Below, one piece after another: positions 1,411 to 11,251 of a DNA stretch of 11,290 nucleotides. Where the stretch lies: positions 1-11,290 of the forward strand of contig DAOVMD010000057.1 in assembly GCA_030630935.1 (NCBI GenBank), in the 5' to 3' direction. The translations under genes and the position numbers were made by a program. The stretch's first letter is position 1. Each line of letters starts with the position of its first letter. The notes below the pieces were generated by a model, which had not been told where the DNA came from, made no database searches, and saw nothing but the letters and a program-made list of their open reading frames with translations. This DNA comes from Candidatus Mcinerneyibacteriota bacterium. Its GTDB lineage: Bacteria > AUK180 > JAQVHJ01.

Positions 1411-1947
1411 TTAGTTATCTGTTGTTACTCCTTTTTCGGAGGAGTAGGAATATTTATATTTTTTATTTCGAAAGTTATGTGAAGGTTTATATCTTATAAT
1501 AAAAGAATTATCATCTTTTAGTAGGGAATATTTTTCAATCTCCAGTTCATTATCATTTAAGTACCCAACTTCAGTTAATACCTTAAGGTTTTCCGGTATG
1601 AACTTATTATCGGTAGAATACATTTTTACTGCTGACCCGAGTTGTCTCAAGTCAGAAGCGATACTTGATTCAAATTTCGAATGGAAATACCCTGCGATAA
1701 AAGGTGACGTAAAGAAGACCAGTAAGATAACAAATCCCCCTGAAAAAATTCCTAATAATGATAAAGTCAAATTGATCTTTCCAAGGAAAAAACCTTCAAA
1801 TAACTCGGGGAATTTTTTTATTCTTGATATACCTATTAAAGTTAAAATTACTGATAGGAATCCCGGCACTATAAACAGACTAATCAGGGATAGGAGGAAA
1901 GCGAGGTATAGAGAAATTGGTACCTTCAGATTTTGTTTTTGTTCCAT
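1411..1947 (-). CDS. Membrane protein with DUF4190-like helices and a pseudopilin-like C-terminal domain
   Basis: The product is 178 residues. Residues 10-42 and 58-87 are two hydrophobic segments joined by a short basic loop (GISRIKKFPELFEG), an arrangement like small two-helix DUF4190-type membrane proteins. After the second helix, residues 95-130 (SSIASDLRQLGSAVKMYSTD...PENLKVLTEVGYL) resemble the start of the globular part of type II secretion/type IV pseudopilins (GspG-like 'DLRQLGSALKMY..D.G.YP'). The tail (131-178) is polar. There is no prepilin-peptidase site at the N-terminus, so it is unlikely to be processed as a pilin. Function is unknown. It lies downstream of the large nuclease gene on the same strand, across a 218-bp repeat-filled gap, so co-transcription is possible but not shown. 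The ribosome site is weak (AAAGA close to the ATG). The reading is based on pattern recognition only. Confidence 0.7.
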   Translation of the reverse strand: MEQKQNLKVPISLYLAFLLSLISLFIVPGFLSVILTLIGISRIKKFPELFEGFFLGKINLTLSLLGIFSGGFVILLVFFTSPFIAGYFHSKFESSIASDLRQLGSAVKMYSTDNKFIPENLKVLTEVGYLNDNELEIEKYSLLKDDNSFIIRYKPSHNFRNKKYKYSYSSEKGVTTDN

Positions 1948-1992: not shown

Positions 1993-2167
1993 CTTGCGAA
2001 GCAAGTTTACAAAGCCGGTGTTACATTTTTATCAGAACCATCTTGCGAAGCAAGTTTACAAAGCCGGTGTTACATTTTTATCAGAACCATCTTGCGAAGC
2101 AAGTTTACAAAGCCTATTTTGAAAGCCCCGCTTGCGAAGCAAGCTTACAAAGCCCTCTTCGAGGGCT
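1993..2167. repeat. Array of four hairpin-bearing repeats, 49-bp period at its left end
   Basis: Units start at 1993, 2042, 2091 and 2131. The first two are identical over 49 bp. The third and fourth keep only the first ~24 bp (cttgcgaagcaag then t/cttacaaagcc). Each begins with a 13-nt perfect hairpin, cttgc-gaa-gcaag, extended in the fourth copy to gcttgc/gcaagc. The core gcgaagc is the sequence known from DNA chemistry as an exceptionally stable mini-hairpin. The array lies between two minus-strand genes, directly past the stop of the large nuclease. Confidence 0.85.
2151..2167 (-). terminator. Hairpin overlapping the stop codon of the large nuclease gene
   Basis: A perfect 7-bp stem, agccctc / gagggct with loop ttc, overlaps the TAG stop at 2166-2168. 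It could end transcription or protect the 3' end, but no T-run follows on the minus strand, so intrinsic termination is doubtful. Confidence 0.35.
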
Positions 2168-4865
2168 AGTTTATTATTCCTAATTTACCGGTATGCATTT
2201 TACCTGATGCATCTTTAATCACGAAGAAATAAATTCCTGACCCCAGGTTTTCTGTTTCAAGGACTGCCTGGTTATTTGATATAAGTGTAATCCCGGAATT
2301 TATTTCTGCAACCAAATCTCCATTCAGGGAATAAATACTGATTGAAGAGAAAGCCGAGTCTTCAATTACGATTGAGACATCAGAGCCCTTTGCCGGATTC
2401 GGATAGATCTTTACTGTTCCCGGTTCCGGTGGTGGAGGAGGTGGTGTTCCAGATTTTGTTGGAATTCCTTCAAGTTCAATTAAATTTGACTCTTCATTAT
2501 TCAATGAATCTTCTGCTCTTACAATAAAGTAATAGGCTTGTCCCTTTGTCAAATCAGTTATAGTTAATGACGAAGTATTTGTTGTTGTATATGACGGCAC
2601 ATCAAAGTATTGCCCGCCCGAATGTATACTATAATAAACATTATATGTAATAGGGTTTGACCCTTCCGGGTCTGTCGCCTGATCCCATTCCAGTGTTAGT
2701 GACTTTCCATCCTTCAAATCAACAATATTTTTTATCCCTTCAAAGACCGGTGGTGTTGTGTCAGGCCCGCTGCTATACGGTGCAGCAGATTGTTCGAGAC
2801 CATTTTCATCTTCATTCCCTACCGAATCTTCTGCTCGTACAACAAAGAAATATGTCACCCCGTTTGTTAAGCCGGTCAATGTAATCCCGGTTGCGTTAGT
2901 TGTTGAGTCATCCGGTGTTGAGAAATTCTGTCCACCTGAACTTGTATCATAATAAATATTATAAGTTATCGGCGTTGACGGGTCAGTTGCAGTGTTCCAG
3001 GTCAGTACAACTTGTCCTGCTGTCCCGTTTCCGTTTGCTGTTTGGACTCCTGTAAATACTGGTGGATCAGTATCTGAAACATTAGGTGCAGCAGATTGTT
3101 CGACACCATTTCCATATTCGTTCCCGCCCGAATCTTCTGCCCTGACTACAAAATAATATGTTACCCCGTTTGTTAGTCCAGTTAAAGTCAGTCCGGAAGC
3201 TGATGTTGTTGTAGTATTAGGCGTTGTAAAATTCTGTGTTCCTGAACTAGTCGCATAATAGATATTATATGTAATTGGCATTGACGGGTCGGTTGCAGTA
3301 TCCCAGGATAATTGAATCTCCCCTGAAGTTCCCGTTGCATTTGCTGATGTAACCCCGAAGAAATCCGGTGGGGAATTATCTACGAAAACATACGGTATCA
3401 CCGAGAGTTCAACTGTGTTTGTATCTTCATAAGGTCCGCCTTCACCTCCGGGTACGCTATCTTCTGCCCTCACAACAAACCAATAAGTTGTTCCGTTTGT
3501 TAAACCCGTCACATAAATTTCTGTATTAGTCGTAGTTCTGAAAGGTGCTCCAAAAAACTGTCCTCCTGAAGTTGTTCCAACATAAACATTATAAGTAATT
3601 GGCGGGGTCTGGTCAGTTGCGGAATCCCAGCTAAGGTAAACTTCTCCGGTATTCCCTGTTGCTAATGCAGTCTGAATTCCTGCAAAGAGAGGCGGGTCAT
3701 GGTCTGTTGTATCTTCCGGTGCCGCAGAAATCTCTACGGAATTTGTATCTTCATTCTCTTTTGAATCTTCTGCTCTCACAACAAAATAATATGTAGTTCC
3801 GTCAACCAGGCCATTCACATTCACATTTAGATTTGTAGTTGTTTGATTTGGTGTTGAGAAATTCTGTCCGCCAGAACTTGCCGCATAATAAATATTATAA
3901 GTTATAGGCGTTGAAGGATCGGTTGCTGCATTCCAGATAAGATGAATCTGACCTGTTGCTCCTGTAGAAGCCGCTGATTGCAGCCCTGAGAAAACAGGGG
4001 GATCAGTATCGGGTGTACACCCGTCCCCTGGCCAGATCTCACAAACCCATTCCGGATGGTCAATGAAGGGGTTTCTGTTACCCTGAATTGCATAAACATT
4101 ATCGTTCCTATCAAGTTCTTTCTGACTGACAGGGTCTGCAGCATGCCATTCCTTCATCATTGCAAGTGCCCAGGGTTTAAGATTTGCACCATCTATCATA
4201 CCATTTTCATCGAAACTTCCATCTTCTCCATAATATCTTGTACACATATAAAAATAAATTCTGGCATGATCACCCTTGAACTTATCAATTGGTTCAAATA
4301 CTGTCCCCGTATAAACACCAGCGTAAACATATGAATTTGAACCTACCTTAGAACCGTTTGTTCCTGTCCAGGATGGGGAATTTACTTCACCATACGGGTA
4401 ATTAGATCTTCTGTTATTTACATAACCATCAGTGGGAATGACATGGAACATATCTGAATACATAGGATTGGCTTTATTGAACCAACTTGAGGGCCAGGAA
4501 TGCTCACGGTTAAAACAGTCTCCTTCTCCGGAATAATTTCCGCATTTATCTCCAACATCATAATGATAACTGTAATCATAAGTACCATCAGTCTTTTCAG
4601 AATATATACACCAAACAGTACCATTTGGTCTTTTATCTGTAGGGGTATATCCTGAGTAAATTCCAAAACCACCATAAGCTTCATAAAGTTCATCATAATC
4701 GATAACTGAATGACCATCAATTATATTGTTCAGGTTTTGACGCAGTACATTCCCGGATCCGGTTGCAGAGTCATAATACCCCGGCGGAGCATCTGCATAT
4801 GTTAGTGAAAAGGGTATTAACAAAATTGTGATTAATACTAAAAAGATTGGAATTTTATTTTTCAT
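2166..4865 (-). CDS. Secreted endonuclease I with five FN3 domains and a T9SS type A sorting domain
   Basis: The product is 899 residues from the ATG at 4865-4863, chosen because GAGGAGAG lies just upstream; the in-frame ATG at 4898 falls inside the promoter. Residues 1-24 are a signal peptide (cleavage near TYA-D). The endonuclease I domain spans about 25-285: E121-H122 in NREHSWPSSWF, DMFHVIPTDGYVNNRRSNYP (138-157), FEPIDKFKGDHARIYFYM (190-207) and NRNPFIDHPEW (263-273). Five FN3 domains follow at about 287-384, 389-492, 496-594, 599-696 and 702-802, then a proline stretch (807-813). A T9SS sorting domain occupies 816-899, with KIYPNPA near its start and GSGIYFFVI...GK near its end. Family knowledge: such nucleases cut DNA or RNA non-specifically with a divalent metal. 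Inference: it crosses the outer membrane by T9SS and is released or cell-attached, perhaps for nucleic-acid scavenging or biofilm turnover. It is paralogous to the truncated gene at 96-935. Confidence 0.92.
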   Translation of the reverse strand: MKNKIPIFLVLITILLIPFSLTYADAPPGYYDSATGSGNVLRQNLNNIIDGHSVIDYDELYEAYGGFGIYSGYTPTDKRPNGTVWCIYSEKTDGTYDYSYHYDVGDKCGNYSGEGDCFNREHSWPSSWFNKANPMYSDMFHVIPTDGYVNNRRSNYPYGEVNSPSWTGTNGSKVGSNSYVYAGVYTGTVFEPIDKFKGDHARIYFYMCTRYYGEDGSFDENGMIDGANLKPWALAMMKEWHAADPVSQKELDRNDNVYAIQGNRNPFIDHPEWVCEIWPGDGCTPDTDPPVFSGLQSAASTGATGQIHLIWNAATDPSTPITYNIYYAASSGGQNFSTPNQTTTNLNVNVNGLVDGTTYYFVVRAEDSKENEDTNSVEISAAPEDTTDHDPPLFAGIQTALATGNTGEVYLSWDSATDQTPPITYNVYVGTTSGGQFFGAPFRTTTNTEIYVTGLTNGTTYWFVVRAEDSVPGGEGGPYEDTNTVELSVIPYVFVDNSPPDFFGVTSANATGTSGEIQLSWDTATDPSMPITYNIYYATSSGTQNFTTPNTTTTSASGLTLTGLTNGVTYYFVVRAEDSGGNEYGNGVEQSAAPNVSDTDPPVFTGVQTANGNGTAGQVVLTWNTATDPSTPITYNIYYDTSSGGQNFSTPDDSTTNATGITLTGLTNGVTYFFVVRAEDSVGNEDENGLEQSAAPYSSGPDTTPPVFEGIKNIVDLKDGKSLTLEWDQATDPEGSNPITYNVYYSIHSGGQYFDVPSYTTTNTSSLTITDLTKGQAYYFIVRAEDSLNNEESNLIELEGIPTKSGTPPPPPPEPGTVKIYPNPAKGSDVSIVIEDSAFSSISIYSLNGDLVAEINSGITLISNNQAVLETENLGSGIYFFVIKDASGKMHTGKLGIIN
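2460..4007 (-). repeat. DNA repeats encoding five FN3 domains, period about 310 bp
   Basis: Each FN3 unit keeps DPPxFxGxxxA, TGxxGxxxLxWxxATD, PITYNxY and TYYFVVRAEDS motifs. At the nucleotide level, units 1 and 4 share long identical runs around 2919-3002 and 3855-3935, which suggests fairly recent duplication or gene conversion. Confidence 0.85.
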
Positions 4866-4888
4866 ATTATTCTCTCCTCTTATATTAT

Positions 4889-4917
4889 ATATTATCATAT
4901 TTTGATATAGAAGTCAA
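4889..4917 (-). promoter_or_regulatory. Sigma70-like promoter of the large nuclease gene
   Basis: On the minus strand TTGACT (4917-4912) and TAATAT (4894-4889) are separated by exactly 17 bp, about 24 bp upstream of the ATG. A perfect palindrome abuts the -35 element on its upstream side. Confidence 0.65.
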
Positions 4918-5343: not shown

Positions 5344-5813
5344 AAACCCTGACCAAATGAATTTAATCCTCCCGCATGATAAAAAAACAAAAAACAATAT
5401 AAATAAGCTACTTACAAGTCCCTTCCAGTCTCCCGATGCGTGTCGTTAGCAGGATCTCCTCACTCCGGTCGTCAATCTGCTGAAGAATTATTTATTTTGT
5501 TTTTTTTTAGTTTGTTTTTGTTTTATTTTTTTTCATCCCGTCCATCCCGTCCATCCCTGTTAAAATTCACATTCGACTGTTTGATAAGTATCTTCAGCTC
5601 TAAACAAATATAAACAATATTAATAAGTTATTTATAAGTCTCTTTGTCGTCCCTGTTAAAAATTTTTCTTTTTTTGTTTTTTAGTTCTCTTAAGTTCTCT
5701 TCAGTTCCCTGTTAATTTAAAAAAGTTTGAGCGAAGCGAGTTAAGTCAATTTCTGTTTCTTTTTTTTTGTTCTCGTCAGTTCTCTGTTAAAAATCTTTTT
5801 TTGTTTTTTTCTC

Positions 5814-5842
5814 TTGACAATTGGATAAAAAACATTTATAAT
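5814..5842 (+). promoter_or_regulatory. Consensus sigma70 promoter of the Mce operon
   Basis: TTGACA (5814-5819), a 17-bp spacer and TATAAT (5837-5842) match the consensus exactly. The expected start point near 5849 leaves an untranslated leader of only about 13 nt before the permease ATG at 5862, with AGGT as the only ribosome-site match. Confidence 0.8.
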
Positions 5843-5861: not shown

Positions 5862-6653
5862 ATGTTTATAATTGATTTCATAGAAAATATTGGTGAGCGA
5901 GTTAGGCAATTTTTCACTACTATTTTTCTAATAATGAACTTCTTCATTCAGACCATTATAAAACTATTCAGGTTGAATATTGTTGAAATTAGGTTAATGC
6001 GCCGTTCCATTTTGAATCAGATCAGGTTTACCTTAGTTGAACCGTTTTTCTTCCTAATAATAATGACTATCATGAGTGGTACACTTGTTGCTGTAATCAG
6101 TTTAATTAACTTTCCTTTAATAAACATTGAAGCGTTTATGAGATTTATTATGGTTTCTATTCTTGTAAAAGAGGTAGGTCCCATAATTGTCAGTATTATT
6201 ATTATTTCCAGATCTGTAACCGCAATAACCTCACATCTTGGGAATATGCAATTGAGCGGTGAGATTAGAACACTTGAACAGCTTGGAATTGATCCAATGA
6301 TTTATATTGCAGTACCAAGATACATAGGGTTTAGTTTATCTTTTGTTATGATGCTGATTTATTTTGATTTCTTCACAATCTTCGTAAGTTTTATTATTGC
6401 AAACTTCAATTGGGATATTTCTTTAAATCGATTTATGGTTATTTTCTTTCAGGGAATTCCAATGGCAGACTATTTATTTATCCTGTTAAAAGCTATAATA
6501 ATCGGAGAAGGTTTATCAGTGATTGCAACCTGGTTCGGGCTTTCAATTAAAGGTTCCAATATTGCAATTCCAAAACACCAAACCCGGGCTGTAGTCTATT
6601 CTTTTATTTGGTTTTTTTTCATAGATCTAATCTTTAACATTTTACAAATTTGA
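5862..6653 (+). CDS. MlaE/YrbE-family lipid transport permease
   Basis: The product is 263 residues, the normal length for MlaE-type permeases of Mce/Mla systems, inner-membrane proteins that work with an ABC ATPase and an MCE protein to move lipids between membranes. An N-terminal amphipathic/hydrophobic stretch (16-37) precedes the family start motif QIRFTLVE (53-60) and several membrane helices (about 61-85, 92-120, 155-178, 205-230 and 240-262). The family's central motif is well kept: KEVGPI (103-108), then SRSVTAITSHLGNMQ (116-130) and GEIRTLEQLGIDPMIYI (133-149), equivalent to 'ELGP..R..aaia.elG.M....qidAL..lGidP'. It is first in a three-gene operon under a consensus promoter, and its stop lies one base before the next ATG. 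The start at 5862 has only a weak ribosome site. An mlaE symbol is withheld because orthology to the E. coli gene is not shown. Confidence 0.9.
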   Translation: MFIIDFIENIGERVRQFFTTIFLIMNFFIQTIIKLFRLNIVEIRLMRRSILNQIRFTLVEPFFFLIIMTIMSGTLVAVISLINFPLINIEAFMRFIMVSILVKEVGPIIVSIIIISRSVTAITSHLGNMQLSGEIRTLEQLGIDPMIYIAVPRYIGFSLSFVMMLIYFDFFTIFVSFIIANFNWDISLNRFMVIFFQGIPMADYLFILLKAIIIGEGLSVIATWFGLSIKGSNIAIPKHQTRAVVYSFIWFFFIDLIFNILQI

Positions 6654-6654
6654 T

Positions 6655-7344
6655 ATGGAAGAAGAAAAGATTTTAAGTTTTGAGGACTGTTCCTTAAAAG
6701 ATATTATAACTACTAAGCTTAATTTTAGTGTTAAGGATAAGGACTCTGTAATGATAATTTTCCCCGGGGATAATTACCGTAATGCTTTCCTGGATCTGGT
6801 TTATGGATTTCAAAAGCCGAATGAAGGTAGGATTATTTTTAAAAACACAGAATACGATTATGAATATTCAAAGCTTCAGAGTTTAAGACGGAAAATCTCC
6901 CTGATTTCACTTGAAGGTAATTTAATTTCTAATTTAGATGTATATGAGAATCTACGTTTACCGTTACTTGCAATGGCTGAGCTTAAGACAAAAGATATTC
7001 CGAAAATAATCGATAATTTTGTAGAGAAACTTGGGATTAGAGAATTTCTTGATAAACTTCCTCATACAATCTCTGATTTGGACCGGGTAAAAGTTAATAT
7101 TGTCCGTGGTCTATGCCAGGATGCTCAACTTTTTATATTAAATAATCTTTTTGAAAGATTAAACGAGAAGAAATGTAAAACTCTTTTTAAAACAATAATC
7201 CCTGAATTACCCTGCACAATTGCATTATCAAAGAGTGAGCGTGGTATAAAGATTTGTAATAGAGTAATAATACTTGAAGAAGAAGGGATAATTTATAACG
7301 GTTCAACAGAGAATTTTGGAAAATACAGGAGTAAGAAAAAATGA
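6655..7344 (+). CDS. MlaF-like ABC protein with all catalytic motifs degenerate (putative pseudo-ATPase)
   Basis: The product is 229 residues, slightly short for an MlaF-type ATPase. The ABC fold is recognisable from the spaced blocks: GFQKPNEGRIIF (51-62), RRKISLISLEGNLISNLDVY (78-97), VRGLCQDAQLFIL (150-162) and CNRVIILEEEGIIYNG (201-216). Every catalytic motif is changed. The Walker A position reads FPGDNYRNAFL (36-46), with R, N and A where K, S and T belong. The Q-loop glutamine is absent. The signature LSGGQ is ISDLD (139-143). Walker B 'LLLLDEP' is LFILNNL (159-165), so both D and E are N. The D-loop aspartate is N170 and the switch histidine aligns with S192. The frame is intact, it starts one base after the permease stop and overlaps the MCE gene by 4 bp (ATGA), and its codon use resembles its neighbours. 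Inference: it is maintained as a structural or regulatory pseudo-ATPase, or the permease uses another ATPase encoded elsewhere. Confidence 0.85.
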   Translation: MEEEKILSFEDCSLKDIITTKLNFSVKDKDSVMIIFPGDNYRNAFLDLVYGFQKPNEGRIIFKNTEYDYEYSKLQSLRRKISLISLEGNLISNLDVYENLRLPLLAMAELKTKDIPKIIDNFVEKLGIREFLDKLPHTISDLDRVKVNIVRGLCQDAQLFILNNLFERLNEKKCKTLFKTIIPELPCTIALSKSERGIKICNRVIILEEEGIIYNGSTENFGKYRSKKK

Positions 7345-8330
7345 AAAAGCGAAGAAATGATATTTTAGTAGGATTTTTTACTTTAATTGCCATCGTGATT
7401 ATTTTGTATTCAATTATTAATATTATTAAAATATCCAAGCACAAAGATTACTACAAACTATATTCACGAGTGGAGAATGTTGCAAATCTTGAAATTGGTA
7501 CAAAGATTTTTTTACAAGGTTACGAGATAGGAAAAGTAAGTGAAATCAGGATTAATCAAAATAATAACGACCTTAGTTTTCTTGTTACCATGCAGATAAA
7601 AAAGGATATTATTTTATATAAGGATACAAAAGCATTAGTCTCAGGTCTCGGTTTATTTGGGGATATGACAATTTTAATGATTCTCCCTGAATTCCGTGAT
7701 GAAGTTTTGAAGGATGAAGATTATCTGGTGCTTGAACAGGATATTGGAGTGAAGGAATTAGTAAGCGATGTTAAAGAAACGATTCGAGATATTGATGAGT
7801 TTGTAAAAGGTGACCTTAAGGAAATGACTGCGGAAGCCAAGGTATTTGTGAAACAAATAAGTACAGTAATTTCAGATAACGCAGATAGTTTTAGCGAATC
7901 GATTGTGTTATTAAATAAGGATTTAAAAGAATTCCATAAAGCGATTTCAATTGTAAATAAATTAGTAGGTCGTAATGAAAACACAATAAATGAATTACTT
8001 GAGAATATCCACTCATCCTCAAAGAATTTAAAAGATATCACAGCTGATTTTACAAAGATGTCCAAGACCTCAACCGAAGAATTGAACAAGATGGCGAAGA
8101 ACCTTGCGATAACTTCTAAGAATTTTGCAATTGTCAGTGAAGATATTAAGAAACACCCCTGGAAACTTCTCTGGAAAAAGGATACCGATATAAAGAAGGC
8201 GGTTAAAGAGTTGGAAAATAGTATAGAAAAAGAAAAGGACCGAGTTGATAAAGAAAAAGATAAAGAGAAGGACAAACCACCCGCTCCAGCACCGGAGAAA
8301 GAAGTAGAAAAGAAAGATGGGAATGAATAA
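7341..8330 (+). CDS. MlaD-like MCE domain protein with long helical region and charged tail
   Basis: The product is 329 residues. A short basic N-terminus precedes one membrane helix (about 8-30). The MCE domain covers about 37-117, with YSRVENVANLEIGTKIFLQG (41-60), GYEIGKVSEIRI (60-71) and GLGLFGDMTIL (102-112), matching the family's 'V.gL..Gt.V...G..vG.V..I' and 'gllGd..i.l' patterns. Residues 135-270 are largely helical and heptad-like. A HPWKLLWK motif (272-279), seen near the end of many MCE proteins, follows. The last ~50 residues are a highly charged K/E/D tail broken by PPAPAP. Family knowledge: MCE proteins form hexameric rings in the periplasm that carry lipids. It starts with a good ribosome site (AGGAG at 7327-7331) and overlaps the ABC gene by 4 bp, which suggests translational coupling. 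Confidence 0.9.
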   Translation: MKKRRNDILVGFFTLIAIVIILYSIINIIKISKHKDYYKLYSRVENVANLEIGTKIFLQGYEIGKVSEIRINQNNNDLSFLVTMQIKKDIILYKDTKALVSGLGLFGDMTILMILPEFRDEVLKDEDYLVLEQDIGVKELVSDVKETIRDIDEFVKGDLKEMTAEAKVFVKQISTVISDNADSFSESIVLLNKDLKEFHKAISIVNKLVGRNENTINELLENIHSSSKNLKDITADFTKMSKTSTEELNKMAKNLAITSKNFAIVSEDIKKHPWKLLWKKDTDIKKAVKELENSIEKEKDRVDKEKDKEKDKPPAPAPEKEVEKKDGNE

Positions 8331-8377: not shown

Positions 8378-8788
8378 ATGAACGACGAGATTAAAATTAA
8401 TAATGACGCTTCTGCAGATGCAATTATAATTGAAGAACATTGTGATAAATGCGGGGTTTTATTAAATGATGATGAATTAGAAGAGGATTACCGGTTTAAA
8501 AAAGGTCCTGTTTGTTTCAAGTGTTTCTTAAAGTTTTTATATAAGAAAAGATTGATTGGTGAAATAGTTACAGGTCTATTAGCTTTTATAGCAATTGTGA
8601 GCTTCATAGTTGGTAATTACATATTTGGAGTATTTTTTGCAATCCTTCTTATTGTTATATATTTAGATCTCCGTTCAGTGAAAAATTTTATTATTGATTT
8701 AGAGAGCAGGATAATAAAATCAAAGGCTACAATCGAGAATTCAAAAGAATCAGATATCTCAAATACTAAAGATGAAACCCCCGAATAA
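8378..8788 (+). CDS. Small zinc-ribbon-like membrane protein of unknown function
   Basis: The product is 136 residues and I do not recognise a family. The N-terminal soluble part has C22-x2-C25 (HCDKCG) and C46-x2-C49 (PVCFKCF), spaced 20 residues apart like a zinc ribbon. A basic KKR (56-58) leads into two hydrophobic segments (about 60-78 and 80-96). The C-terminal 40 residues are polar and charged. Such proteins are commonly membrane-anchored with the metal site in the cytoplasm. It lies 47 bp after the MCE gene on the same strand, so it may belong to the Mce operon, though a hairpin sits in the gap. The ribosome site is weak (AAGAG, 9 nt before the ATG). A nearby ATG at 8371 opens only a seven-codon frame. 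Confidence 0.75.
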   Translation: MNDEIKINNDASADAIIIEEHCDKCGVLLNDDELEEDYRFKKGPVCFKCFLKFLYKKRLIGEIVTGLLAFIAIVSFIVGNYIFGVFFAILLIVIYLDLRSVKNFIIDLESRIIKSKATIENSKESDISNTKDETPE

Positions 8789-8854: not shown

Positions 8855-10345
8855 ATGAAGAAGCTCAGATTACCAGGCATTTTTTTCCTGACGTTATTTT
8901 TAGTTGTATTATTGATCCAGGCACCCTGTGCCGGAGATGATAATTCAGATAAGGAACCGAAGATAAATATTCCCAGTTCCACATTTTCACTTGATTCCAC
9001 TCAACAGATTCAGCAAAAGAATATACCGAGTGGAATTAAAAGAGAAGGTAAGGTTACAGTAATTAAGAAGAAAATACCTGTTAAGATCTATAAGAAAAAT
9101 GGTTTTGCAATCTGGGAAGCAAGTATTCCTGGGAATCGGGCATTAGCAACACCAGCAGTTGTAGATGGTCGGGTTTTTATCGGAGGTGGTTTTGGGAGCT
9201 ATGAGTTTTATGCACTTGATGCCGATTCCGGAAAATCCAAATGGCAGATTAAAGTAAATGATCATGGTCCAACTGCAGCAGTTGTTAGGGATGGATACGT
9301 TGTTTTTAATACTGAGTCCTGCACTTTATTTGTTGTGAAAGAGAAGACCGGGAAGATGGTCTGGTCAAGATGGTTGGGAGACCCGCTTATGAGTCAACCT
9401 GCAATTTCCGAAGATAAAATTTACATGGTTTACCCAGACAGCAGGGGACATATCCTTACTTCACTTGGTCTGAAAGACGGGAAGGAATTCTGGAAGAGAA
9501 GGATTGACGGTGATGTGATCTCAGCTCCTGTTATAGCCGGAGATTCAGTCTATGTGTCAACTTTCAGAGGTACTGTTTACAGGTTCGGGAAGGATGACGG
9601 GGAAGAACGTTGGAAGAAAGAGATGAATGCAACTTCTGCACCATGGATAGTAGGTGATGAAGTTTTTGTAACAAAACGAAAGCCGGGTGATAAGACTGCA
9701 AAACATAAACCAAGAGAAGGGATTCAAATAATCAATGTAAAGGGCGGTAAAAATATAAACAAGGAACTCTGGTCGGAACGTGATGCAGAATATCTTTCTC
9801 ATGAAGTCCAATCGAAAACAAAATATTACACAGCTCAAAAGAGTGATGATGCTTCAGTTGGCTTTTCAACTGCACCTGCATTTGCAAAGACTCAAGACGC
9901 AGCAAGTAATATTGGGCAGAGTACAGTTCGAGGGCTCTGGGAATATCAGGGGTCGAGGAATGTTATAGTAGGAGATAAAGTATATAATTCAATGGGTGAC
10001 GTTCTTCAGGAAGTGGATAGAAAAACAGGGAAGGTTAATTGGGAGTTGAAACTTACGGGTGAAAAGAATCTTGGCGGTCATTTAATTACACCGGCTGCAA
10101 TCGGTGGAAGTAAGATGGTTGTCGGAACTTCAACAGGACTGGTAATCTGCTTTAATCGCAATTCAGGTAAGAAACTTTGGGAAGTTAATGTCGGAGCCCC
10201 GATCAGATTTCAACCATCCCTTGCAAATGGAAAGGTCTATGTCGGGACAACTACGGGTAAGTTAATCTGTATCGATACTAAAGATAAAGAACTCGATAAT
10301 TGGGTTATGTGGGGCGGTGGCCCGGAACATAATGGTCCGAAATAA
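8855..10345 (+). CDS. Exported PQQ-type beta-propeller repeat protein (BamB-like fold)
   Basis: The product is 496 residues. Residues 1-26 form a Sec signal peptide (MKKLRLP then a hydrophobic run to IQAPCA); the cysteine does not sit in a proper lipobox. After a polar linker (27-80) come repeated propeller blades of the type 'P.v..g.vyvg...g....ld..tGk..W'. The GK/GE-x-x-W ends occur at GKSKW, GKMVW, GKEFW, GEERW, KELW, GKVNW and GKKLW, with a last DNW, so about eight blades. A non-repeat stretch (roughly 310-365) interrupts the later blades. The protein ends in WVMWGGGPEHNGPK, a motif more often at the N-terminus of such proteins, which suggests ring closure by the C-terminal strand. Family knowledge: these propellers include quinoprotein dehydrogenases and the scaffold BamB. 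No heme-binding or dehydrogenase-specific residues are evident, so a scaffold or binding role is more likely than an enzyme. It starts 66 bp after the zinc-ribbon gene. Confidence 0.88.
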   Translation: MKKLRLPGIFFLTLFLVVLLIQAPCAGDDNSDKEPKINIPSSTFSLDSTQQIQQKNIPSGIKREGKVTVIKKKIPVKIYKKNGFAIWEASIPGNRALATPAVVDGRVFIGGGFGSYEFYALDADSGKSKWQIKVNDHGPTAAVVRDGYVVFNTESCTLFVVKEKTGKMVWSRWLGDPLMSQPAISEDKIYMVYPDSRGHILTSLGLKDGKEFWKRRIDGDVISAPVIAGDSVYVSTFRGTVYRFGKDDGEERWKKEMNATSAPWIVGDEVFVTKRKPGDKTAKHKPREGIQIINVKGGKNINKELWSERDAEYLSHEVQSKTKYYTAQKSDDASVGFSTAPAFAKTQDAASNIGQSTVRGLWEYQGSRNVIVGDKVYNSMGDVLQEVDRKTGKVNWELKLTGEKNLGGHLITPAAIGGSKMVVGTSTGLVICFNRNSGKKLWEVNVGAPIRFQPSLANGKVYVGTTTGKLICIDTKDKELDNWVMWGGGPEHNGPK

Positions 10346-10672
10346 GAGTTTCGCTTCGCTACACAATTAACAATGAAGAATGAATAATGAAGAGTGAACA
10401 ATGATTTTGCTTTAATTATTATGATGCATCTATTTTGAACTGAAGGCACTTAGTAAACAACTGAATGTAAGATTTTCACCACAGAGAACACAGCGAGCAT
10501 GGAGAAAAAAAAGAGAAGAATATTATAACCATGAAGGACATGAAGGGGGTGAAACCCCATTGTTATGGCTAATAACAATACTTTTCAAAGTACTAACCTT
10601 CACACCAGTCCAGTTTGGACTGGCGCATGATTGAAGATAATAGTATTAAAAGAAAAAACAAAAGAGAACTGG
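10346..10672. other. Non-coding spacer with a cluster of hairpins
   Basis: It begins with a 'tttcgcttcgct' word also found near 5103-5114, then 'aatgaagaatgaataatgaag' type words that are the complement of the run at 1357-1380. An 'accacagagaacacag' and 'ccatgaaggacatgaag' stretch (about 10478-10545), a phrase scattered in many bacterial genomes, follows. Four hairpins then lie between 10546 and 10623. No convincing gene was seen. Confidence 0.65.
10546..10623. repeat. Four consecutive hairpins upstream of a membrane-protein gene
   Basis: In order: ggggt-gaa-acccc (10546-10558), attgttat / ataacaat with loop ggcta (10559-10579), tacttt-tc-aaagta (10579-10592), and ccagtcca / tggactgg with loop gtt (10605-10623). 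All stems are perfect. The last ends 50 bp before the ATG at 10673. This may be a structured leader or a terminator/attenuator cluster; no clear T-run follows. Confidence 0.6.
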
Positions 10673-11251
10673 ATGAGAAATAACGAGAACCAGGACAACA
10701 AATCAACCAAAATCTCTTTTGTTTTTAAATCAATACTTGCATTGTTATTTTTTATAATTGGTTTTTATAAATTATACTATGGTTTTGTTTGGAGCGAATT
10801 CTTTAATTACTTTCCAGGGATCATTTTTATCTTTATATCATTGTTGGTTTATTTTATGAAAAGTTCAAAAGATATTATAACGTTCTTTTTATTTGTCGTA
10901 ATAATAACAGCTTTGGTTGAACTTGATCACATTTATAATTTTCAAAACACTTGGTATGATATTAATGATTTTTTAAGAATACTAATAATATTAAATGCTC
11001 TTTCAATAATTTCTTTTCTTTTTCTTAAAGTATCCGGTCAGGTTTTTGCAATCGTTATAAACAAGGTATTAAAATATTATTTTTTATATTTATATTTAAA
11101 TAAAATACTTTATTACTTATTAGATCCGGAATCTTTTGGAGGTTCATTTCACGTTAAGATCGCATTGTCATTTACAATCTTATTTTTTGTAGTTGGTATA
11201 ATTGAAATTTTGCTGTTAATAAGAATATCGAGATTCATAAAAAAACATTAA
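10673..11251 (+). CDS. Polytopic membrane protein of unknown function
   Basis: The product is 192 residues from the ATG at 10673. A TTG at 10631 would add 14 residues, but the ATG is preferred because AAAAGAGA lies just upstream and the extension is unconvincing. A polar, asparagine-rich N-terminus (1-14) is followed by hydrophobic segments at about 18-38, 46-62, 67-84, 100-118 and 163-184, with a sixth less certain around 135-150. The short charged loops include an ELDH (83-86) and a DPESFGG (151-157) segment. I recognise no family. Base composition is visibly more AT-rich than the nuclease genes, consistent with many Ile/Phe/Leu/Asn codons. It stands alone downstream of the hairpin cluster. 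Confidence 0.7.
   Translation: MRNNENQDNKSTKISFVFKSILALLFFIIGFYKLYYGFVWSEFFNYFPGIIFIFISLLVYFMKSSKDIITFFLFVVIITALVELDHIYNFQNTWYDINDFLRILIILNALSIISFLFLKVSGQVFAIVINKVLKYYFLYLYLNKILYYLLDPESFGGSFHVKIALSFTILFFVVGIIEILLLIRISRFIKKH

Follow-up and report, generated by a model that had tools for sequence, protein, structure and literature searches.

What does an ABC 'ATPase' do in an operon that has kept its gene intact if the motifs needed for handling nucleotide are gone? The question is raised by a gene for a protein of 229 amino acids, with an ATG start (positions 6655–7344, forward strand), in the window, by which we mean the entire 11,290-base contig C85 from a draft genome of 471 contigs that is 80% complete. 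The gene occupies the position of MlaF in an MCE operon. It begins one base past the stop codon (6653) of a gene for an MlaE/YrbE-type permease of 263 amino acids (5862–6653, forward strand) and overlaps by four bases the start of a gene for an MCE (MlaD-like) protein (7341–8330, forward strand). The three reading frames are intact and densely spaced, and the original prediction of an uninterrupted MlaF-position gene inside a compact operon is borne out. All three products belong to the expected families: the ABC protein reaches 38.3 bits with Pfam ABC_tran (gathering score 25), the permease 137.9 bits with MlaE (PF02405, cut-off 22.5) and the MCE protein, which also has a homologue in the related genome G001 described below, 46 bits with MlaD (PF02470, cut-off 25.1) at residues 37–111. 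At 36.1 bits the ABC protein falls outside the NCBIfam equivalog for MlaF (NF008809, cut-off 441), a model on which even the genome's own canonical MlaF scores no more than 217.5 bits. The MCE protein has a transmembrane helix at its N terminus, a single MCE domain and a long helical C-terminal region, with no barrel-like C terminus.

Alignment to the canonical MlaF encoded elsewhere in the genome (locus L034) confirms the earlier claim that every nucleotide motif is altered. The Walker A position reads FPGDNYRN (residues 36–43, 6760–6783) against GxxGxGKS, with arginine for lysine and asparagine for serine, and FPGDYSRD in G001. Leu86 replaces the Q-loop glutamine (6910–6912), ISDLD (residues 139–143, 7069–7083) stands in the place of the signature LSGGQ (LSGGM in L034), and Asn163-Asn164 replace the Asp-Glu of Walker B (7141–7146). 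Asn170 takes the position of the D-loop aspartate (7162–7164) and Ser192 that of the H-loop histidine (7228–7230), the latter placed by its ungapped distance to the next conserved N/D-R; all of these features lie on the forward strand. One of 13 catalytic positions is kept, as against 12–13 of 13 in canonical nucleotide-binding domains (NBDs; n = 40), and the protein thus does not carry the motifs of an active ATPase and presumably does not hydrolyse ATP.

Sequencing or assembly error and chance are rejected as the origin of these replacements, because G001, which belongs to another genus of the same family and was assembled separately, has the same operon with the same gene order and the same motif replacements. 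As expected if the degenerate residues are conserved in related genomes, the two NBDs share the derived residues FPGD..R.AFLDL, SDLD, NNL.ERL and LSKSERG, at an overall identity of 52% (74% for the permease and 66% for the MCE protein). The three operon genes of G001 are followed, as in the window, by genes for the same small protein (8378–8788, forward strand in the window), which carries a CxxC...CxxC motif at its N terminus, has two hydrophobic stretches and matches no family in Pfam or NCBIfam, and for a secreted BamB/PQQ beta-propeller protein (8855–10345, forward strand; Pfam PQQ_2, 131.6 bits). The propeller would be a candidate periplasmic partner of the system; a hydrophobic protein of 206 amino acids is encoded 3' of it (10631–11251, forward strand). 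Among seven genomes of the phylum, G001 is the only other one with the divergent operon. Scans of genome contigs returned only the G001 record (JAQVHJ010000122.1) and one MlaE from Chitinophagales without an adjacent NBD match; the viral contigs searched gave no match, and among the best plasmid matches listed there were only generic ABC proteins below 30% identity.

The degenerate NBD is a trait of a broad MlaE branch and not of this genome, which the original prediction missed. The branch was gathered by permease similarity, and the state of the NBD played no part in finding its members. A profile built from the permeases of the window and G001 recovered distant relatives in many families, most of whose adjoining NBDs are degenerate to a varying degree, and an oddity confined to the window is thereby rejected. 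With a 20-member permease profile, on which its own members score high by construction, 25 of 386 genomes from 19 families scored at least 221 bits, and the next matches (at most 213 bits) adjoin canonical NBDs wherever these were read. In a maximum-likelihood tree of 62 permeases a single branch (100/100) parts the divergent permeases from those beside canonical NBDs, and the window permease sits opposite the canonical MlaE proteins encoded next to intact MlaF. The canonical loci had at first been picked by top Pfam score; selection bias is rejected as the source of the split, since a second tree of 75 sequences with low-scoring canonical MlaE from the same genomes and extra divergent permeases gave the same division (100/100). 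On the divergent side the deep order does not resolve and several end branches are long. Among the open PMC papers searched, we came across no account of degenerate MlaF proteins or of this larger branch.

Motif loss within the branch is graded. The 22 divergent NBDs keep between 0 and 12 of the 13 catalytic positions, the window lying near the extreme. All 22 have lost the first glycine of the signature, 21 the H-loop histidine (5% keep it) and 18 the catalytic glutamate (18% keep it); the Q-loop glutamine is kept in 27% and the Walker A lysine in 59%. The branch is not uniformly dead, as far as motifs can tell, because the NBDs of L099 and L114 show intermediate loss and those of one genus (g95; L109, L154, L155) are near intact, their sole change being LSVGM for LSGGM. 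The g95 proteins are probably still active, and they form a natural comparison set for the dead ones.

What has been retained while the active site was dismantled? The AlphaFold2 model of the window NBD is a confident, complete fold (pLDDT 93.4, pTM 0.90) that superimposes on E. coli MlaF (6xbd_I) over 224 residues at 2.2 Å and 19% identity (VIA Z 25.3). It clearly has the ABC NBD fold (best Foldseek E 5.5e-19, VIA Z 25.9); MlaF chains (Z 24–25) are among its nearest structures, with other ABC NBDs scoring like MlaF. Modelled at pLDDT 89, the permease aligns with chains of MlaE and of mycobacterial YrbE at Z 25–28 (20 for one low-resolution entry), the next unrelated fold reaching only Z 11. 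Structure prediction, proposed as a check for the ABC protein with its permease and MCE partners, returned for the two proteins as single chains a full MlaF-like NBD and an MlaE/YrbE-type permease. The best-conserved columns of the divergent NBDs include the stretch L-I-S-N-L..EN..LP that follows the Q-loop, in a region which in ABC transporters faces the coupling helix of the permease. Within its LISNL motif (residues 90–94, 6922–6936, forward strand) the asparagine is present in 22 of 22 divergent NBDs, whereas 97% of canonical NBDs have serine there. On the permease side the coupling-helix region (about residues 118–156) has a mean identity of 0.56–0.67 against 0.25–0.45 in many other parts, and permease and NBD distances are correlated (Mantel r 0.49 with near-duplicates removed; 0 of 2000 permutations). 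As judged from sequence, the permease-facing interface is retained and both ATP half-sites are gone.

We consider it reasonably probable (roughly 0.6) that the window protein is a structural pseudo-ATPase that replaces MlaF in a divergent, ATP-independent MlaE–MCE lipid conduit operating beside a canonical Mla system. Two copies of it would sit under an MlaE-type permease dimer, gripped through the conserved coupling-helix groove, and would stabilise the permease and the MCE ring without hydrolysing ATP; the NBD would have been retained because the permease–MCE complex needs it. Lipid would then travel between the inner membrane and the periplasmic MCE tunnel by way of the permease pocket, driven by its own gradient or by something other than ATP, while the canonical ATP-driven Mla system would run in parallel. 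That a protein with no catalytic residues left serves lipid transport without ATP is something that we infer, as we do the NBD homodimer, the formation of the complex, and the movement of lipid and its direction. Lipid passes from MlaD to MlaC spontaneously without ATP, and hydrolysis suppresses this transfer (PMC10212509, PMC7790496); by analogy, a permease–MCE complex with a dead NBD might act as a passive or otherwise driven conduit. In M. tuberculosis, MceG is needed for the stability of Mce1 and Mce4, but its Walker B mutants failed to stabilise them (PMC9947336), which cautions that an NBD without catalysis need not make a good scaffold.

Another possibility is that the pseudo-ATPase pairs with a canonical MlaF encoded elsewhere in an asymmetric dimer with one working site, in the manner of CFTR or TM287/288. 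The search for a second, canonical MlaF in the genome was successful: an MlaEFD operon on another contig (G000:C124, locus L034) has intact GQSGCGKS, LSGGM, DEP, GLDP and THD motifs, together with a long MCE protein with a barrel-like C terminus (L034:5090–7993). Two genes just 3' of this operon (L034:8008–9270 and 9549–10784) encode proteins that resemble each other and have TonB-like domains at their C termini. Of the 22 genomes whose NBD copy is clearly degenerate (genus g95 excluded), 19 have an intact MlaF-type NBD that was read beside another MlaE, and in mycobacteria a single NBD, MceG, serves several MCE permeases (PMC9947336), both of which speak for such pairing. The three genomes in which no intact MlaF-type NBD was read are G001 (72% complete), G138, which has two more MlaE genes with no NBD in the flanking stretches that were read, and G309, whose single system has an NBD that keeps Walker A, the Q-loop glutamine, DEP and the D-loop. 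Co-occurrence with canonical Mla is, however, expected and proves little, because most sampled genomes have MlaE (303 of 386 at E ≤ 1e-35), and the operon supplies one NBD for its one permease. An objection comes from the architecture of the sites, each of which combines Walker A and B from one chain with the signature from its partner. Since the window chain has lost both, no complete standard site would be expected either in a homodimer or in a pair with MlaF. ABC exporters with one degenerate site likewise keep non-canonical motifs under selection, but their odd motifs cluster at one site and they retain the other complete (PMC7756269), whereas the window chain retains neither half-site. 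Pairing with a borrowed ATPase is accordingly unlikely. Of the three mechanisms originally proposed, an ATP-independent lipid bridge, a structural clamp and a heterodimer with an active ATPase, only the last has been weakened in this way, and the three are otherwise only partly separated.

A somewhat less likely alternative is that the NBD acts as a sensor, gating the permease by binding ATP, ADP or some other ligand that it does not hydrolyse. The arginine at the position of the Walker A lysine is conserved in both genera, as is FPGD..R.AFLDL, and several divergent relatives (L097, L100, L103) combine a full Walker A with the loss of catalytic residues. Arginine also replaces this lysine in ABCG5/G8 (PMC7756269), and motif loss is no proof of lost nucleotide binding. 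Against a sensor stand the absence of the P-loop glycines, the Walker B aspartate and the signature in the window, and a Walker A that is unrecognisable in about half of the relatives.

A further alternative holds that the constraint on the subunit is relaxed, the subunit losing its function and its gene eventually being lost. The NBD changes at roughly twice the rate of its permease (dN between the window and G001 of 0.415 against 0.192; 0.242 for the MCE protein), and we conclude that it is under constraint weaker than that of its partners, which, with the graded motif loss across the branch, favours relaxation. The magnitude of the remaining constraint contradicts it. Fourfold-degenerate sites of the NBD gene differ at 61% between the window and G001, near saturation, and neutral simulations at that divergence gave a mean protein identity of 11–17% and always at least five stop codons, as compared with the 52% observed and no stops. 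Saturation of silent sites leaves dN/dS between the window and G001 undefined, and close pairs were therefore taken from another order, in which 21 further NBDs are degenerate and the LISNL stretch is almost unchanged. Four such pairs of equally degenerate homologues gave the low ratio that the original prediction called for (0.016/0.132, 0.035/0.235, 0.084/0.442 and 0.119/1.015, that is, 0.12–0.19). None of the 46 readable divergent loci lacks the NBD gene, the 47th (L200) running into a contig end, and identical derived residues recur in different genera. Decay of a pseudogene is rejected on the simulations and the dN/dS ratios, and gradual loss through relaxed constraint is already strongly disfavoured. 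Together with the residues shared with G001 and the confident fold, these data support the earlier proposal that selection, and not random decay, has shaped a non-hydrolysing subunit, and the divergent operon is real and under selection. Hydrolysis through a non-standard active site is highly improbable: the NBD fold is complete, but its Walker B is left without an acidic residue and it lacks a phosphate-binding loop of the known type.

How would a pseudo-ATPase conduit compare with the known MCE systems? MlaFEDB of E. coli, A. baumannii and P. aeruginosa shares with it the permease fold (VIA Z 25–27), the NBD fold (Z 24–25), the MCE domain and the gene order permease–NBD–MCE; complexes of the MlaFEDB type join NBD, permease and MCE protein in a 2:2:6 ratio. 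MlaFEDB differs from the window operon, which has neither a catalytic motif in its NBD nor a gene for MlaB or MlaC, and whose MCE protein carries the long helical extension while its permease falls into a separate branch. LetAB and PqiABC are MCE systems without an ABC ATPase, their membrane subunits not being MlaE-type permeases and no NBD being present; the window system would resemble them in employing an MCE tunnel that no ABC motor drives. Mycobacterial Mce1 (YrbE1AB, MceG) provides the best fold match for the permease (8fed_I, Z 28.3), and it differs in having an active ATPase, MceG, that serves more than one system (PMC9947336). The MlaEFD system of Veillonella parvula, as described in the available passages of PMC10665443, is likewise built on three core genes, its long MlaD perhaps bridging the envelope, and resembles rather the other operon of the window genome with its long, barrel-ended MCE protein; the Veillonella MlaD carries an outer-membrane beta-barrel, whereas the window MCE protein ends in a charged tail. 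The tree of that study was confined to MlaD and MlaE because the annotation of MlaF was uncertain, and those passages contain no discussion of a degenerate MlaF (PMC10665443).

In the branch at large a further component recurs. In 10 of 22 divergent loci, and in one weak case, the MCE gene is followed, mostly with an overlap, by a gene for a TPR protein that bears a lipoprotein-like signal (L096:8406–9335, L097:9009–10013, L100:3560–4468, L101:9074–10009, L102:3567–4355, L105:3426–4367, and also L099, L106, L111 and L113); none of 17 canonical loci has such a gene. The window and G001 have the CxxC membrane protein and the secreted propeller where others have this lipoprotein, which is a candidate partner on the outer-membrane side. 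More tentatively, and with odds that we place slightly below even, the branch as a whole may constitute a second, widespread type of MlaE-based MCE system that is ATP-independent, with its ATPase made structural and a TPR lipoprotein as fourth component in about half of its members, working beside the ATP-driven Mla system and possibly in the opposite direction. The delivery of phospholipid to the outer membrane and the direction of Mla-type transport are long-standing questions, and MlaE–MCE machines without a functional motor, apparently kept for long in many bacterial families, would offer a natural test of such a machine without ATP hydrolysis. In vitro, the absence of hydrolysis favours spontaneous outward transfer from MlaD (PMC10212509); outward flow would be the simplest guess. 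For annotation, the label 'MlaF' or 'ABC transporter ATP-binding protein' in an MCE operon is not evidence of ATP-driven transport.

Upstream of the operon the window holds a long intergenic region with imperfect T-rich direct repeats (5380–5815). An uncharacterised membrane protein of 178 amino acids without a family match (1411–1947, reverse strand) may belong to the transporter system, as its G001 homologue is encoded directly upstream of the divergent permease. The window also encodes two endonuclease I proteins (96–935 and 2166–4898, both on the reverse strand), the larger of which combines fibronectin III repeats with a sorting domain of the Por secretion (type IX) system at its C terminus, and a homologue lies near the divergent operon in G001 as well.
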